In this document: in pieces, positions 25,434 through 32,954 of the stretch
How positions within the stretch are numbered: position 1 is the first letter of the stretch
How the letters are laid out: each line of letters opens with the position of its first letter
Assembly: GCA_024763185.1 (NCBI GenBank)
Contig: JANTFY010000003.1
Coordinates: 1-35,064 of the forward strand
Direction of reading: 5' to 3'
Length of the DNA stretch: 35,064 bases
Source of the DNA: Gammaproteobacteria bacterium
GTDB taxonomy: Bacteria; Pseudomonadota; Gammaproteobacteria; GCA-001735895
Made by a program: the position numbers and the translations under genes
The notes under the pieces: generated by a model
What the model was told of the DNA's origin: nothing
Databases searched by the model: none
The model's input: the letters and a program-made list of their open reading frames with translations, nothing else

Positions 25434-26354
25434 ATGACCTTAACCGAACTCAAATACATCGTTGCCGTTGCCCAAAAAAAACATTTCGGACAAGCCGCAC
25501 AAGCCTGTTTTGTCAGCCAGCCTACCTTGAGTATCGCCATCAAAAAACTGGAAGAAGAACTCGATATCAAGCTGTTCGAGCGCAGCTCGAAAAATGAGAT
25601 TCGCATTACCGATATCGGCCAGCAGGTCATTGAACAGGCGCAGAAGGTATTACGTGAAACCCAGGTCATCAACGAGATTTCCCAACAGGGCAAGGACCCT
25701 TTATCGGGCACCTTTCGCCTCGGTGCCATTTACACCATTGGCCCCTACCTGTTGCCCAACCTGATTCCGCGCATCAATGAATCCGCACCCAATCTGACGT
25801 TGATTATCGAAGAGGATTTTACCGCCAACCTGTCAACCAAGTTAAAACAGGGTGAGCTCGATGCCATTATCATCTCCTACCCTTATGATGAAGCGGGAAT
25901 CGAAACGGCACCATTGTATGAAGAACCCTTCGTTGTGGCTTTACACTCAAGGCACGAATGGCTACAAAAAGAACAGATTTCCGTCAACGAACTGGTCGGC
26001 CAGGACCTGATGCTGCTCGGCGCCGGGCACTGTTTCAGGGACCAGGTGATACAGGCTTGCCCACAGTGCATGGAAAGCAATAACGAACTGACCCGCACCC
26101 TCGAAGGCAGCTCACTGGAAACCATCCGTCACATGGTTGCAGCCGGAACCGGCATTACCGTACTACCCTGTACCAGCATGATGCACAGCCAGCAAAATCA
26201 TGATCTGATCAGCATCAAGTCCTTTGCCAACCCCCAACCCAGTCGCACCGTTGCATTGGCCTGGCGCAAGCATTATCCGCGCAAGGAGGCGATCCAACAG
26301 ATTATCGACAATATCCAACAGTGCCAGTTACCGGGTACACAATCCATTCGTTAA
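25434..26354 (+). CDS. oxyR: LysR-family hydrogen peroxide sensor OxyR
   Basis: 306 aa; MTLTELKYIVAVAQKKHFGQAAQACFVSQPTLSIAIKKLEEEL; redox cysteine region LGAGHCFRDQVIQACPQC aligns with the OxyR Cys199/Cys208 region. Confidence 0.93.
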   Translation: MTLTELKYIVAVAQKKHFGQAAQACFVSQPTLSIAIKKLEEELDIKLFERSSKNEIRITDIGQQVIEQAQKVLRETQVINEISQQGKDPLSGTFRLGAIYTIGPYLLPNLIPRINESAPNLTLIIEEDFTANLSTKLKQGELDAIIISYPYDEAGIETAPLYEEPFVVALHSRHEWLQKEQISVNELVGQDLMLLGAGHCFRDQVIQACPQCMESNNELTRTLEGSSLETIRHMVAAGTGITVLPCTSMMHSQQNHDLISIKSFANPQPSRTVALAWRKHYPRKEAIQQIIDNIQQCQLPGTQSIR

Positions 26355-26360
26355 AGGACA

Positions 26361-29012
26361 TCAAACACCGACACAGTCGACATAGATAGTTACACCTGGA
26401 TAATTAATTACCCCACTTCCATCTCCATTGGAGCCACCAGAAACTTCACATATATGTCCCTGTCCGGTATCACTGCCTTCCACAACCTCAACAGCATAAG
26501 AAGAGCCGTTATCCAACTGAGATGAAAAGGTATAGGTACCATTATCATCAATGAAAAGGTCATCACCACCATTATTGGTCAATGTGAAAGTACCGATGGC
26601 GCCACTTACTTCAACGACAATACCAAAGGGACCTAGCGCATGATTCCCGTAACGGGCAATAAAAATATCCTCGCCGGAGGATTCATTCAGATAACGAAGA
26701 CCATGCCCAGCAACAAAGATGTTATCCACTGGGTCAAGAACAATACTTTCAGCCTGGTCTGTTGCAACAGTACCATCTTGTATGGTCCACTGCAGAACTC
26801 CATCATTATCTAGTTTACTTAAGAAATAGTCGTACTCACCCAAGTTACTATTTCCATAGAGTGCGCCAGCAGTTGCTCCAGTTACATAGATATTGGAAGC
26901 CGAGTCCAGGTCAATACCCCTGATCCATTCACGTTCGACCGTGCCCATTTGGGTAATCCACTGCAAATCCCCGTCACTATCCAGCTTAGCGATAAACACA
27001 TCTATTTCACCATTATTGGTTCCATTCCAGTTACCCCAGGTATCACCTCCTATGTAAATATTATTATCACTATCCAGAACGATACTATAGCCATTATCAT
27101 ACGAGTCAGTTCCTAACTGCTCTGTCCAGAGCCTGCTACCCGTTGAAGTATATTTTGTAACAATCACATCGGTGAAGCCAAGGCTGACATTTCCATCCAA
27201 ATCCCCACCTGTATAACCTACCACAACCACATTATCATCTGAGTCCACAGCTATTTCATAACCGTATTCATAATTATTAGTTCCCGGTTGCTGGGTCCAT
27301 TGATGGTCACCATCCGGGTTATATTTGGAGATAAAGATATCCCGCCCAGCATGACTACTGTTTCCATTTAAGCCATTTTCAGTCATGCCTGTCATGTAAA
27401 CGTTGCCTTCACTGTCCAGGGCCACATCATATCCTATGTCGGATTCAATACCGCCGTTTACGACCGTCCATTGATGATCACCATCCAGATTATATTTACT
27501 CAATAGAATATCCCGCCCCCCACTATTAACATACCCATCCAGGTCACCGAAGGTATCCCCGGTTATATATAAATAACCTCTTACATTATCCAAGACCAAA
27601 CCACGAATTTCATCATCCTCTTCACTTCCATTTAAAACGGTCCAGATAAAATCTCCATCTGACGAATATTTACTAATAAAGAGATCCCCCCTTCCATTAT
27701 TGGATTGACCATCAAGATCTCCTGCCGCTTTTCCAACCACAAACAAATCACCTGACGCATCTAGTGCTATATCGTTGGCATAATCATGAAGTACTCCTTC
27801 CATAGTTCCATTCTGGACGAACCAAGCCAAGGTGGGTGGACCTCCGGGATTTGCAGTATTTGCCGTTATGCTGACAGAATCAGGATTACTATCCAGTTCA
27901 CCATCTGTGACGGTTAAATTGACAACATAATTACCCTCTATATCAGCAATAAATGTGGGCGTTTGAGAATTCGCATTTATTAGCGTTGTAGAACTACCAT
28001 CGGGCACAGACTGAAATACCCAGGTAAAACTCAATTCATCATCATTGGGGTCAGAACTTGATTCACCATTTAACAAAACCGTTGACCCTACATCCACACT
28101 TTGATCATTTCCTGCATTTGCAACCGGCCTGCCATTGCTGTTTACTGCAGCAGTAATAATGACCTGGTCCTGGTCGCTATAGGTGCCATCATTCACCTCC
28201 AATTGCAGCAAGTATTCTCCCTCCACATCAGCCATAAATGAAGTCTGTACCTGTGCCATGTTTTCTAACACTGCTGTACTGCCATCTGGCCTGCTGACAA
28301 AACCCCATAGGTATGTCAGCTGATCGCCATTTACATCGATACTTGCCGAACCATCAACCGTCACCAGGCGTGGAGCCAGAACACTCTGATCATCACCAGC
28401 ATTAGCATTGGGTGGTAGATTCATACCATCCGGCAGCCCACCACCATACTCAATAATTGACTCATGAAGTTGATCCCTTGCATCTTCAACACTAACAAGG
28501 ACTCTGTTCAAAGCATTCTGTGTATCCTCACCAAAAGATGCACTGGAAAAATCTGTTTGTGCTGGCAATAAATTAACTAAATTATCATCCAGAGTGATAA
28601 CTCCATTATCTGGGTCACCATCACCATCTACAGTTTGCAATAAACGCGCAACATTAATGGCCGCATCTTCATCACCGGGAAACAAGGTATAGGGGGAAAT
28701 GGGACCTTGCTGTACCCGTACATTACCCAGATTAACCGCCCCCAGAGAAAATCGCACCATATCGCCAACATTACACGTATATTCCCCAAGCTGATTGGTT
28801 ATACCTGTATGACCTGATGAACAGGTATATCTCAATCCCTGAACTGGGTCATCGATAAACTGACCGGTGATAGTCTGGGCACTCGAGCCACCACTGCCTC
28901 CACCACAGGACATCAACAATACAGATAAGACGGTAGCCAAAAAATAACCCGCCACCTTCGGCAACGAAACGCCCCCATGAAGAGGCTTGATACGGTCTGT
29001 TATTTGTTTCAT
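26361..29012 (-). CDS. Putative lipoprotein with PKD/REJ-like domains and seven SBBP-type beta-propeller repeats
   Basis: Lipobox VLLMSCGGGSGG; two PKD-like segments (PNANAGDDQSVLAPRLVTVDGSAS; PVANAGNDQSVDVGSTVLLNGESSSDPN); seven repeats each ending D[ILV][FIL][IVL][SAT][KR][YL]. Track ORF begins at TTG 29039; ATG at 29012 (MKQITDRIKPLHGG...) preferred. Confidence 0.85.
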   Translation of the reverse strand: MKQITDRIKPLHGGVSLPKVAGYFLATVLSVLLMSCGGGSGGSSAQTITGQFIDDPVQGLRYTCSSGHTGITNQLGEYTCNVGDMVRFSLGAVNLGNVRVQQGPISPYTLFPGDEDAAINVARLLQTVDGDGDPDNGVITLDDNLVNLLPAQTDFSSASFGEDTQNALNRVLVSVEDARDQLHESIIEYGGGLPDGMNLPPNANAGDDQSVLAPRLVTVDGSASIDVNGDQLTYLWGFVSRPDGSTAVLENMAQVQTSFMADVEGEYLLQLEVNDGTYSDQDQVIITAAVNSNGRPVANAGNDQSVDVGSTVLLNGESSSDPNDDELSFTWVFQSVPDGSSTTLINANSQTPTFIADIEGNYVVNLTVTDGELDSNPDSVSITANTANPGGPPTLAWFVQNGTMEGVLHDYANDIALDASGDLFVVGKAAGDLDGQSNNGRGDLFISKYSSDGDFIWTVLNGSEEDDEIRGLVLDNVRGYLYITGDTFGDLDGYVNSGGRDILLSKYNLDGDHQWTVVNGGIESDIGYDVALDSEGNVYMTGMTENGLNGNSSHAGRDIFISKYNPDGDHQWTQQPGTNNYEYGYEIAVDSDDNVVVVGYTGGDLDGNVSLGFTDVIVTKYTSTGSRLWTEQLGTDSYDNGYSIVLDSDNNIYIGGDTWGNWNGTNNGEIDVFIAKLDSDGDLQWITQMGTVEREWIRGIDLDSASNIYVTGATAGALYGNSNLGEYDYFLSKLDNDGVLQWTIQDGTVATDQAESIVLDPVDNIFVAGHGLRYLNESSGEDIFIARYGNHALGPFGIVVEVSGAIGTFTLTNNGGDDLFIDDNGTYTFSSQLDNGSSYAVEVVEGSDTGQGHICEVSGGSNGDGSGVINYPGVTIYVDCVGV

Positions 29013-29031
29013 TTCCTTTAAACCCACCCTG

Positions 29032-31512
29032 TTAAACAAATTTTCGGTTAAATAATGATTTTCTCCTCAACCCGAAGACCCACACTAGAAATGCACTCAG
29101 CACTTCAACTGCAAAAGCCCCGCTGGAACCACCGTCTGAATCATTATCCGGATTACCGCCAACATCTACCGTATTGGCCACCACCCCCTCGCCACTCACG
29201 TGAAGGGTAATCGGATTCTCGTCACCATCATTTGATGGAATATCCAGACTGTCGTTAAAATCGGCCACGGATGTAGGTGAGAACCTGATGGTTATTGCAC
29301 AGGTTTCACCCTGGCTTAAGGTTTGAGCTGAGCAGGTATCATTGTCCAGCTGGAAAGGGTCTGCCAGGGGATTTGACACCGCAATCTGCCCAAGAACCAG
29401 GTCAGCGCTTCCGTTATTGGTGATATCGACCTGTTTTGTTGCAGTGCTGTTTTCAGCCACTCTACCAAATGGAAGCTGGAGGTCATCCACCGGGTCAACA
29501 GCATCCGTGACGGCAATATCCGCTACGGGTTGTGCCACGCCTGTGCCGGTTACTGTAACAATCACCGATGGCTCATCGGCATCATTCGATGGAATATCCA
29601 GGTTGTCATTAAAAATACCTGCGGATGTGGGTTCAAATTGAACTTCAAAGGTACAGCTGGAAGCTGGTATTACAGTCTGCCCACTGCAATGATCATTGAT
29701 CAGGCTAAACGGCAGAGCAACCACATCCACACTGCCGATATTGCCAATAACCAGGTCGGCATCTCCAACATTTGAAATGGTTACGGTTTGTACGCCACTG
29801 GTGGCCAGGGTTCTGGCCCCAAAAGCAATCTGCAAATCATCTGGCGGAGCGATTGAGTCCACTACCGTGATATCCGGAACAGGAACACCAATACCATGAC
29901 CTTGTGCACTGACGGTCACCACCGATTCATCCGCATCATTGGAAGGAATTTCAAAACCATCCGTGAAAGCACCGGTTGAAGGCGGCGTAAAGCGGATGGT
30001 TAAGGCACAGTTAGAGAGTGGTGCCAGGGTTTGACCAGAACAACTATCCGCTTGAATGACAAAGTCATTGTTAAGCAGATTCTGATCTACCACCAAGCCG
30101 AGAATAAGATCCGCATCACCGCTGTTGGTCACGGTTATGCTGTGATCTGCAAAAGATAACTCGGTAACGTCACCAAATAGAAGTTGAAGATCATCAATGG
30201 GTGCAACAGAATCTGTTACAACAATTTCAGGCGAAGTTACCCCTGCACCCTGAGCGTAAATATAAGCAGCACCCAGGTCGGTAATAAAACCCGTTTGAGC
30301 GTCATAATAATCTTCTCGCCAGGCTCCAATAATGGCATGTTCATCACCCAGGGCAACCGAGCCCCCATAGATATCCATTCCTGAACCATCTGACGCCGTC
30401 AGATGCTGGATTTCAGACCAATCTCCTGCCAAGTCAATCTGGTAGAGATAGGCTGAACCGGCCAATGACCCATTATCGTCGTAGGTGCTATACGAACCGA
30501 TCAGGACCTGATCTCCCTGTATGGAAATCGACTCACCAAAACCATCGTAGGGGAAATTGACCGTACCATCAAAATCGGACGCATTTAATATCTGTTCTTC
30601 TGTCCAGGTGGCGCCATTCCTATTAAACACATAAACCGAGCTGGCAACATAATTGCTCAATGCCACATGAACATAGCTGTTGTTGGATACCATGGCCGTA
30701 TCACCGCTGACCGCAACGGCATGACCAAACCAGTCGTCCACGGCATTATCGGATGCCAACAACTTCTGCTGTTGAGCCCAGCTATCTTGTGAGCGAACGA
30801 AAATATAGGCACTGCCTCGTCGGGCATGCTTATCTTTCGCACCTACCACGACAGTGTCCCCATCAATGGCGACGGCATTGCCAAAGTTGTCGCCGTAGTC
30901 AGAGTCATCGGGGCGAATTTTCTGTTGTTCACTCCAGGTTGTACCACTACGTACAAAGACATAAGCTGCACCGGGCGGATTAGTTTCATGAACACCGTCG
31001 CCCAGTTCCTGAGCGTATTCAGCCCCGATCACCACCGTATCGCCATCTATAGCCACGGCATGTCCAAACTTGTCATCATCCGAGCCATCGGAAGCGATCA
31101 GTTTTGCCTGTTCCGTCCACACAGTCCCGCTGCGAACAAACACATAGGCTGCGCCTGTATTACTTCCAGATACAGAAGCACCTTCAGCCCCGACAACAAT
31201 CGTGTCACCATCCATAGCGACTGCACGCCCAAAAAAATCATTCGATGCACCATCTGATGCCGTCAGTTTTTGTTGCTCCGCCCAATCACCCGATACAGCG
31301 TCACGTACCAAGACATAGACCGCACCCGTTGAACCAGAATTGGAACCGATAGCAGCCGTATCTCCACTTATCGAAACTGCACGTCCAAACTGATCATAAT
31401 CGGCTCCATCCGAAGCAAAAATTTTAACTTCGCCCGTCAGGTCAGCCGATACTGTGAATGGAATTAAAAGAACTAAGAAAGAAAAAAACCGAATAACCTG
31501 ACCAAAGACCAT
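29032..31512 (-). CDS. Exported FG-GAP repeat protein with three choice-of-anchor-D-like domains and a C-terminal sorting-like tail
   Basis: Signal peptide MVFGQVIRFFSFLVLLIPFTVSA; seven repeats like LTASDGASNDFFGRAVAMDGDTIVVGA; three ~110-aa repeats with CSGQT...C; tail DGGSSGAFAVEVLSAFLVWVFGLRRK. RBS GGAG 8 nt before ATG 31512; ORF-track start is 31542. Confidence 0.87.
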   Translation of the reverse strand: MVFGQVIRFFSFLVLLIPFTVSADLTGEVKIFASDGADYDQFGRAVSISGDTAAIGSNSGSTGAVYVLVRDAVSGDWAEQQKLTASDGASNDFFGRAVAMDGDTIVVGAEGASVSGSNTGAAYVFVRSGTVWTEQAKLIASDGSDDDKFGHAVAIDGDTVVIGAEYAQELGDGVHETNPPGAAYVFVRSGTTWSEQQKIRPDDSDYGDNFGNAVAIDGDTVVVGAKDKHARRGSAYIFVRSQDSWAQQQKLLASDNAVDDWFGHAVAVSGDTAMVSNNSYVHVALSNYVASSVYVFNRNGATWTEEQILNASDFDGTVNFPYDGFGESISIQGDQVLIGSYSTYDDNGSLAGSAYLYQIDLAGDWSEIQHLTASDGSGMDIYGGSVALGDEHAIIGAWREDYYDAQTGFITDLGAAYIYAQGAGVTSPEIVVTDSVAPIDDLQLLFGDVTELSFADHSITVTNSGDADLILGLVVDQNLLNNDFVIQADSCSGQTLAPLSNCALTIRFTPPSTGAFTDGFEIPSNDADESVVTVSAQGHGIGVPVPDITVVDSIAPPDDLQIAFGARTLATSGVQTVTISNVGDADLVIGNIGSVDVVALPFSLINDHCSGQTVIPASSCTFEVQFEPTSAGIFNDNLDIPSNDADEPSVIVTVTGTGVAQPVADIAVTDAVDPVDDLQLPFGRVAENSTATKQVDITNNGSADLVLGQIAVSNPLADPFQLDNDTCSAQTLSQGETCAITIRFSPTSVADFNDSLDIPSNDGDENPITLHVSGEGVVANTVDVGGNPDNDSDGGSSGAFAVEVLSAFLVWVFGLRRKSLFNRKFV
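29180..30230 (-). repeat. Three tandem ~110-aa choice-of-anchor-D-like coding repeats
   Basis: Repeated blocks: PxIxVxDSVAPxDDLQLxFG...TNSGDADLxxG...DxCSGQTL...C...RFxPxSxGxFxDxxxIPSNDADExxVTVxxxGxG. Confidence 0.8.
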
Positions 31513-31515
31513 GAC

Positions 31516-31554
31516 AACTTCTCCATTTGCGGCGAGGGACACTACGGAGAAGTT
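31516..31554 (-). promoter_or_regulatory. 9-bp perfect inverted repeat; potential RNA hairpin enclosing the Shine-Dalgarno
   Basis: AACTTCTCC 31516-31524 and GGAGAAGTT 31546-31554 on the plus strand; on the minus-strand transcript AACUUCUCC-N21-GGAGAAGUU-GUC-AUG. Confidence 0.55.
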
Positions 31555-31555
31555 A

Positions 31556-31583
31556 AGTCACATAAAGTCACAAAATAGTCACA
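31556..31583 (-). promoter_or_regulatory. Three direct heptamers TGTGACT, 11 and 10 bp apart; candidate SARP operator
   Basis: Plus strand AGTCACA at 31556-31562, 31566-31572 and 31577-31583, all identical; between the SARP-like gene and the FG-GAP gene. Confidence 0.6.
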
Positions 31584-31644
31584 GTTGCAAAATACAACTC
31601 TTGGTTATGACTTAAATCAAAAGTTGTGATTAAAATCGGAAAAA

Positions 31645-32490
31645 CTATTTGGGAGCCTGGGCACACAGTTCGCAGAATCCTCCGCAAACTTCGGGTTCTG
31701 CCTTAATGGTTTCATAAAGATGGAGGGTTTTTTGCGATGGCTTGATGCCAAAAGTCTGCTTTAGCATTTGATGACAACGTTCAAACAGGGCCAGCGCTTC
31801 AGAACGGTTGCCCTGGGCACTGTGACAACGCATCAGACCCCGACAATACTCTTCAGACAGCGGGTCGAATTCGCGTGCTTTTTCATACAGCGTGATCACT
31901 TTTCTACAGTCACTGCCGTGATGACGATAATATGCGATCAGCAGCTTGATAATACGCATAAAACGCGAGCGTAAACGTTCTCTGAGCGGTAACATCCAGC
32001 CAACAGCGTTTTCCTTTTCCAGGAACAAACCCCGATTAAGGGCAAACAGCTCTTCAATCAGTTGCTGTAATTTGACTTTTTCATCCTGGCTGTCGTTTTC
32101 CAAATATCGACCCAACTTGTTTAACAGCGCTTCCAACACCCAGGTGTCCACCCAGCAATACTGATCATTCAGGCTTAAGTGACCTTGTTGCACATGGAGT
32201 GCATCCGGTCCAATCATTTTCCTTAGACGTGACAGGGTGGTTGTGTATGCACTATGAGCCTGGTCACCTTCAGAATCTGGCCACAAGGATTCGGTGATCA
32301 GGAACTCGCTAACATTTTTGCCACCGAAGGCGATTAATACCTGAAGCAATTGAACCGGTTTATTTTGGGCTTTGCCCCTGAAGTGAATTTTTGCCCCATT
32401 CAGGCGTACGGAAAAATGCCCCAAAGTAGAAGTTTGCAGAGGATAAGATCCATAAGATTGATCGTAACGAGTTGTTCTTTCGGGACCCAT
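31645..32490 (-). CDS. SARP-type transcriptional regulator (OmpR-like winged helix plus BTAD)
   Basis: 281 aa; LGHFSVRLNGAKIHFRGKAQNKPVQLLQVLIAFGGKNVSEFLITESLWPDSEGDQAHSAYTTTLSRLRKMIG then BTAD-like TPR helices (YCWVDTWVLEALL...REFDPLSEEYCRGLMRCHSAQGNRSEALALFERCHQMLKQTFGIKPSQKT). Confidence 0.88.
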   Translation of the reverse strand: MGPERTTRYDQSYGSYPLQTSTLGHFSVRLNGAKIHFRGKAQNKPVQLLQVLIAFGGKNVSEFLITESLWPDSEGDQAHSAYTTTLSRLRKMIGPDALHVQQGHLSLNDQYCWVDTWVLEALLNKLGRYLENDSQDEKVKLQQLIEELFALNRGLFLEKENAVGWMLPLRERLRSRFMRIIKLLIAYYRHHGSDCRKVITLYEKAREFDPLSEEYCRGLMRCHSAQGNRSEALALFERCHQMLKQTFGIKPSQKTLHLYETIKAEPEVCGGFCELCAQAPK

Positions 32491-32642
32491 TTTCTAAAAC
32501 CTTGCCTTAATACCGGCACTTACCACTTTTGTTATTTTGAACGGGAATATAACTATTTTTCAATTCCAATGTATTGATGGAAGTCACCCTTGGCACCATT
32601 TAGCTTTATAATTCAGCCTTGTTAAAACAACCGATAAAGCCA

Positions 32643-32954
32643 ATGGTAAAACATGATATCACCCGGCAAGAGTTGGAACGCGGGAAAATAAACAGCGAGA
32701 CCGCGCGCATCGCCTGGAAGGAACTGCAACGCTATTTTGCCGGGGGTTACACCCTGCTGGTCAGCGACGAACTCGACTTGATCGAGGTGGCCTACCAGAT
32801 GCAGCAGGACAATGCGTCACAGATCGAACAGTGGATGCAAAACACACAGATTCAGCAGGTCAGCAATGAACAGGCACGTGAGTGGTTTAACAACGATGCC
32901 GAACTATGGGCCTGTGTGATCAAGCCCTGGGTGTTGATTCAAGCGGTGGATTAA
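32643..32954 (+). CDS. DUF2288 family protein
   Basis: MVKHDITRQELERGKINSETARIAWKELQRYFAGGYTLLVSDELDLIEVAYQMQQDNASQIEQWM...EQAREWFNNDAELWACVIKPWVLIQ. Confidence 0.85.
   Translation: MVKHDITRQELERGKINSETARIAWKELQRYFAGGYTLLVSDELDLIEVAYQMQQDNASQIEQWMQNTQIQQVSNEQAREWFNNDAELWACVIKPWVLIQAVD

Follow-up and report, generated by a model that had tools for sequence, protein, structure and literature searches.

Within a 35,064-nt stretch of gammaproteobacterial DNA (the window), which belongs to a 2.47-Mb metagenome-assembled genome (MAG) that is 79% complete, we studied the block at positions 26361-32490. We consider it highly likely that this block, which lies as an insert between two core genes, comprises a small SARP-type activator together with the operon that it targets. 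The three consecutive minus-strand genes that fill the block encode a BTAD regulator, an exported FG-GAP protein and an SBBP lipoprotein (Table 1), in agreement with a preliminary description of the same DNA, which had also linked the regulator to the surface-protein genes through a SARP-like operator. Control of the neighbouring propeller genes by this regulator is very probable, because an operator and a -10 element lie between them, the two-repeat operator pattern is found once in the genome and the arrangement recurs in other genomes. The main known role of SARPs is to activate antibiotic clusters in actinobacteria.

Three exact TGTGACT heptamers, separated by ATTT and TTA and followed by TAACTT, lie in the 132-bp gap that follows the regulator gene. 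In 100 shuffles no match to this triple-heptamer operator was found with up to 2 mismatches allowed, so the SARP-like operator of the preliminary description holds. Published SARP operators are direct repeats with an 11-bp pitch, located close to the -10 element (PMC10936776). The three heptamers are direct repeats with the SARP-type pitch (11 bp or 22 bp), and they lie at a short distance from the -10 element, which in the register used here is 10 bp from the second heptamer; for the 3' repeat of SARP operators 8 bp is reported (PMC10936776), a value that depends on the heptamer register. The two-repeat pattern TGTGACYNNNNYGTRACY has a single occurrence in each of three entire genomes, that of the window, the 6-Mb genome of G007 and that of G409, and in all three it lies between the regulator and the surface gene. 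In G104 there are three occurrences, two of them at the regulator locus, and eight other genomes of the window's family have 0-1 each. The reversed pattern, used as a control, gave zero matches in the genomes scanned. The remaining matches (in G001, G003 and G104:C219) have no obvious surface gene after them. Among viral contigs the triple-heptamer pattern has one match.

The window regulator forms a clade (support 99/96) with its homologues in G004 and G007, from the same genus, and in G409 and G104, from another family of the class. The same operator is present in all clade members with sequence at that position, namely in G007, in G409 and twice in G104, and an FG-GAP or PKD/SBBP-type surface gene is found downstream in every member whose contig extends that far. 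In G409, which came to light in a hold-out search once the pattern was known, the regulator is 48% identical to that of the window and is followed by the operator, a small open reading frame (ORF) and an FG-GAP protein with 47% identity over 796 aligned columns. In G007 the operator and a small ORF precede a PKD/SBBP-type lipoprotein, whose N-terminal and PKD part is 50% identical to that of the window lipoprotein, and the contig ends before any SBBP repeats are visible. The order in G104 is operator, small ORF, a lipoprotein on the opposite strand, a second operator, an FG-GAP lipoprotein and a PEP-CTERM-like protein. In G004 the regulator is part of a 749-aa open frame and the contig stops right after it. 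The absence of this neighbourhood from other genomes would have spoken against the preliminary description; instead, arrangement and operator recur in G007, G104 and G409, and the proposed link between regulator and surface genes is computationally well supported. As an observation on G007 itself, the TPR and SARP parts of its regulator lie in two overlapping frames (L034:1730-3926(-)), a frame-shift that is either real or an assembly error.

The promoter arrangement extends beyond this clade. Exact hexamer repeats in the 350 bp after the regulator have a period of 11 in 30 out of 78 regions, and each other period was found in 2-10. Such 11-bp-period repeats were detected after the regulator in 29 of 77 regions, compared with 23 of 313 control regions lying upstream of the other genes of these loci (p=3e-10), and shuffles gave 4.7±2.0. 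Aligned by their core-N5-core arrangement, 22 of 24 sites are oriented toward the downstream gene. In 22 out of 27 sites, some of which come from closely related loci, a TANNNT hexamer begins 11 or 12 nt past the second 6-nt core, and it is near zero at other offsets (background 0.9% per offset). This -10 signal is independent support, because the sites were chosen on repeats only. The repeat core varies across families (TGTGAC, TGTTAC, TGTAAG, CGTGAG); the pitch and the distance to the -10 element are constant. Operator sites were found in 11 families. When the loci are read outward from the operator, we assign the first substantial gene to an exported or surface type in some 14 of about 20 cases, and this view adds three CTERM-like proteins (L045, L099 and L105) which were missed when starting from the gene.

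Domain comparisons place the regulator in the SARP family. A profile built from 16 relatives aligns with the AfsR SARP domain (8hvr; E=2e-13) over winged helix-turn-helix (wHTH) and BTAD, spanning profile positions 30-246 of 247, and it also matches EmbR (2fez; E=2e-7). The window protein has a weak Trans_reg_C match (OmpR-type wHTH, 0.002) next to its BTAD domain; an N-terminal OmpR-type winged helix followed by BTAD is the SARP-family arrangement, and the intact frame carries the family's invariant residues. It stops after BTAD, and the layout of large AfsR-type SARPs, a SARP module followed by NOD and TPR parts, is not present in it. By domain and operator tests it is therefore classed as a SARP, not as an AfsR-type large SARP.

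Within the class, 48 out of 369 genomes contain relatives at E<=1e-30. Outside it, close relatives (E<=1e-28) are rare: a phylum-wide search found them in 5 of 399 genomes, one of which is that of the window, while three are listed only as belonging to the same phylum. A contig scan of genomes with the window regulator as query detected only four distant relatives. In most relatives the SARP part is the C-terminal module of proteins of about 1070 aa, with an N-terminal STAND-type NTPase and MalT-like TPRs, or of TPR proteins of about 700 aa (700-1100 aa is taken as the size range of the large relatives). Free-standing versions of about 300 aa exist in other clades (L150-L152, L037, L040, L045). 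The STAND-TPR relatives are often located upstream of PEP/VPLPA-CTERM proteins, two-partner-secretion adhesins or propeller lipoproteins. A surface-type feature, defined as propeller repeats, a CTERM-like tail or a CGGG lipobox, was found in 17 of 74 same-strand downstream neighbours within 3 kb, compared with 3 of 216 genes at distances above 5 kb (p=1e-8). An automatic signal-peptide heuristic was too insensitive, owing to wrong start codons, and was excluded from these statistics. NCBIfam models gave six VPLPA-CTERM matches among 73 downstream neighbours. In a supported subclade (L100, L150, L151 and L152), free-standing SARPs of about 300 aa are followed by exported two-partner-type proteins: a ShlB/FhaC-type TpsB and a filamentous-haemagglutinin-type adhesin in L150:4316-8744(-) and a TPS-domain protein in L100:10140-13283(+), with the neighbours of similar size in L151:4295-8753(-) and L152 as candidates for the same type. 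Genomes unused when the pattern was noticed contributed the FG-GAP relative in G409, the TpsB and adhesin in L150 and a CGGG lipoprotein in L155.

The more general pattern is a regulator family with a varying linked exported or surface protein. We think it rather likely that small SARPs, TPR-SARPs and STAND-TPR-SARPs, the latter with a domain order opposite to that of AfsR, form a widespread gammaproteobacterial family that serves mainly to activate a linked exported or surface gene (propeller lipoproteins, PEP/VPLPA-CTERM proteins, two-partner-secretion adhesins) through promoters of the AfsR type, and that an undescribed small protein is often encoded between the operator and this gene. This use of a SARP switch is apparently widespread and undescribed; in the open-licence PMC literature we found no paper describing SARPs in Gammaproteobacteria under those words and none linking BTAD regulators with PEP-CTERM proteins.

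The FG-GAP protein consists of seven FG-GAP_2 repeats, three Ig-like choice-of-anchor-D domains, a Gly/Ser linker (DGGSSG), a hydrophobic C-terminal membrane segment and a basic tail. Its gene likely starts at ATG 31512, after GGAGAA, rather than at GTG 31542. The AlphaFold2 model shows a seven-bladed propeller with 28 strands in the propeller region, most blocks having a pLDDT (predicted local distance difference test) of about 75-97. The closest PDB folds are integrin alpha chains, with a global TM-score of only about 0.35. Two sorting routes were considered and rejected: a GlyGly-CTERM/rhombosortase substrate, as the FG-GAP gene has no GlyGly-CTERM match and the 79% complete genome gave no TIGR03902 hit, and a PEP-CTERM/exosortase substrate, as PF09721 had no hit in G000 or in its seven congeners G001-G007.

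The SBBP gene likely starts at ATG 29012, 19 bp past the FG-GAP stop, and both genes are probably on one transcript. Seven D-[IVYL]-[FIL]-[VIL]-x-[KR]-[YL] units were counted in the lipoprotein, which is similar to CylK (1.7e-69) with no other CylK domain detected. The C-terminal half of CylK is a seven-bladed propeller. The AlphaFold2 model of the lipoprotein has a pLDDT of 38, a low confidence due to its shallow alignment, and the match to the LipL53-type SBBP lipoprotein model NF047494 reaches 184.7 bits, under the curated cut-off of 400 bits. The preliminary description had given each surface protein exactly seven recognisable repeats and had called their genes adjacent and near-coupled, and both statements proved correct. 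Of the two seven-bladed propellers it had proposed, the FG-GAP one is supported by the structure model; the SBBP one is suggested by repeat count and CylK similarity.

The regulator would act as follows. Two or three wHTH-BTAD protomers would bind side by side at the TGTGACT direct repeats (11/10-bp pitch), directly upstream of the FG-GAP -10 element, and recruit RNA polymerase as AfsR does. The FG-GAP gene would be switched on, and then the SBBP lipoprotein gene through read-through over the 19 bp. Both products are exported and are probably displayed on the cell surface. As the window regulator has no STAND-TPR sensor half, which most relatives have, it would be ungated and its activity probably set by its own amount; the larger relatives would be gated by ligand or ATP. 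The domain make-up, the operator, the -10 position, the recurrence and the insertion can be read from the sequence itself; we infer activation rather than repression, co-transcription, a surface location and an adhesive role, with export signals and domain types suggesting surface display and adhesion.

Several points weigh against this interpretation. The exact trio of regulator, FG-GAP and SBBP genes was found nowhere else, including within the genus. The recurrence in the clade is split, with FG-GAP in G104 and G409 and an SBBP-type lipoprotein in G007, and the preliminary idea of one conserved unit of the regulator and both propeller genes is not supported. That the two propellers act as a pair is unproven, because the trio is not conserved and the G007 contig ends before the SBBP repeats. 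For over half of the relatives no operator could be recognised in the 350-700 bp that were searched, and a surface-type neighbour is lacking in many. The surface features were picked after part of the loci had been seen, and the loci are related (81 loci in 35 families). Because the MAG is incomplete, targets at other sites may be absent from it. The exact register is uncertain, since the spacer to the -10 element is partly occupied by the third heptamer.

The oxyR-like gene and the DUF2288 gene on its two sides are close neighbours in five congeners (G002, G003, G004, G006 and G007), in which TerB and a lipase-like gene keep the same order around them, and therefore the 6.1-kb block is an insertion in the window genome, as had been suggested. 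The regulator homologues of G004 and G007 are on contigs other than the oxyR/DUF2288 one. The G+C content is somewhat lower (0.42-0.48) around 26-29 kb, and the annotated remainder of the window is ordinary core chromosome. The absence of the block at this site in the five congeners and the lower G+C would also fit a passenger island of unrelated genes without functional link. In another family (G409), however, a regulator with 48% identity is accompanied by an FG-GAP protein with 47% identity and by the same operator. This recurrence, together with the similar pairing in G007 and G104, counts strongly against such an island, which we hold to be very improbable.

It is equally hard to credit that the repeats serve another regulator, for example of the CRP/FNR type, with the BTAD gene as a mere neighbour. 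TGTGA is a known CRP half-site, but CRP sites are inverted repeats and those in the window are direct with an 11-bp pitch; moreover, in many families such repeats are found after the BTAD gene, with a core that varies and a pitch and -10 distance that do not, and in three genomes the BTAD locus is the site of their single occurrence. The regulator could also be a decayed, non-working remnant of a large STAND-TPR-SARP protein, given that in most relatives, among them the 749-aa frame in the same genus, the SARP part is the C-terminal module of a protein of 700-1100 aa. Its intact 281-aa frame with the invariant residues, the free-standing versions of about 300 aa in other clades and the intact operator with its extra heptamer make this improbable.

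The proposed activator and its target operon share several properties with known systems. AfsR binds as two adjacent protomers that recruit RNA polymerase, and its NOD-TPR half inhibits the SARP module until ATP binding relieves the inhibition (PMC10936776). AfsR and the small SARPs ActII-ORF4, DnrI and RedD have the wHTH and BTAD module and 11-bp-pitch direct repeats upstream of the -10 element in common with the window family, which differs in being gammaproteobacterial, in its TGTGAC core and in its target, an exported/surface operon and not an antibiotic gene. In AfsR of Streptomyces coelicolor the SARP module comes first, whereas the large gammaproteobacterial relatives begin with the STAND-TPR sensor half. 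The operators of PimR, a SARP-LAL protein, have three heptamers with 4-nt spacers or, in a second operator, two heptamers with a 3-nt spacer (PMC5930380). The window operator likewise has three heptamers, with spacers of 4 and 3 nt; PimR, however, binds upstream of the -35 element and needs the triplet, whereas the window repeats lie close to the -10 element as in AfsR and the window protein has no LAL part. GSU1771 of Geobacter sulfurreducens is a SARP-domain regulator of cell-surface functions, namely extracellular electron transfer, exopolysaccharide and biofilm (PMC10599522), and a surface role of a SARP outside actinobacteria therefore has precedent. It differs in its N-terminal receiver domain and as a global regulator that is also a repressor, and a linked propeller operon or an 11-bp repeat operator is not described in the text consulted (PMC10599522).

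HilA of Salmonella is a proteobacterial activator with an OmpR-type wHTH and a C-terminal TPR-like part, which acts at direct repeats near -35 and has a secretion system as its target. The FG-GAP protein resembles integrin alpha chains in its seven-bladed propeller, Ig-like domains, C-terminal membrane segment and basic tail, and differs in being bacterial and of the FG-GAP_2 sequence family. LipL53-type SBBP lipoproteins and CylK share the SBBP repeats on a lipoprotein; the window protein differs by its two PKD domains.

These results attach SARP promoter logic to the gammaproteobacterial cell surface, in many hosts known only as draft genomes. With the operator and -10 signature, targets can be predicted from nothing but the sequence. 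The signature also assigns a testable role to the large STAND-TPR-BTAD proteins, whose annotation goes no further than BTAD-domain regulator, and ties them to surface proteins whose control is otherwise unknown.

Table 1. Features of the studied block, its borders and the small ORF of related loci
Feature	Coordinates	Strand	Evidence
oxyR-like core gene, left border of the insert	25434..26354	+	OxyR model 1.4e-78, below curated cut-off; adjacent to DUF2288 in five congeners
Lipoprotein (LMSC-GGG), N-terminal domain, two PKD, seven SBBP units, 883 aa	26361..29012	-	SBBP 6e-32, PKD 4e-21
Exported FG-GAP_2 propeller protein, 826 aa	29032..31512	-	FG-GAP_2 x7, 1.6e-91; choice_anch_D x3
-10-like hexamer TAACTT	31550..31555	-	begins 12 nt past second TGTGAC core
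SARP-type operator, three TGTGACT heptamers, 4- and 3-nt spacers	31556..31583	-	exact match
Stand-alone small SARP, wHTH and BTAD, 281 aa, without NOD/STAND or TPR sensor part	31645..32490	-	Pfam BTAD 4.3e-17
DUF2288 gene, right border of the insert	32619..32954	+	Pfam DUF2288 4.9e-31
Conserved small ORF in relatives	L034:1361-1573, L149:2922-3131, L102:8682-8879, L046:8257-8454, L044:1478-1639	-	
Conserved small ORF in relatives	L036:1643-1834	+	
Conserved small ORF in relatives	L039		

The small ORF between regulator/operator and surface gene is conserved in several relatives, encodes 60-75 aa and has the motif [IV][IV][RH][IL]Y[RQ]...GVVE...F....LW.ILA. It has no Pfam match and no NCBIfam match above cut-off, and it is absent from the gap in the window.

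Among the genes downstream of related regulators, the first one encodes about 2950 aa in L114, L118 and L049, and within the downstream set as a whole Pfam identified one member with a TcA C-terminal domain and one with ankyrin repeats. In several genomes of family f65 a conserved 310-aa gene follows the operator (L156-L159). In another genome of the window's family, four consecutive CGGG lipoproteins are positioned directly after a 985-aa regulator (L144:7178-13426(+)), of which at least the first carries delta-60/DUF5122 propeller repeats.

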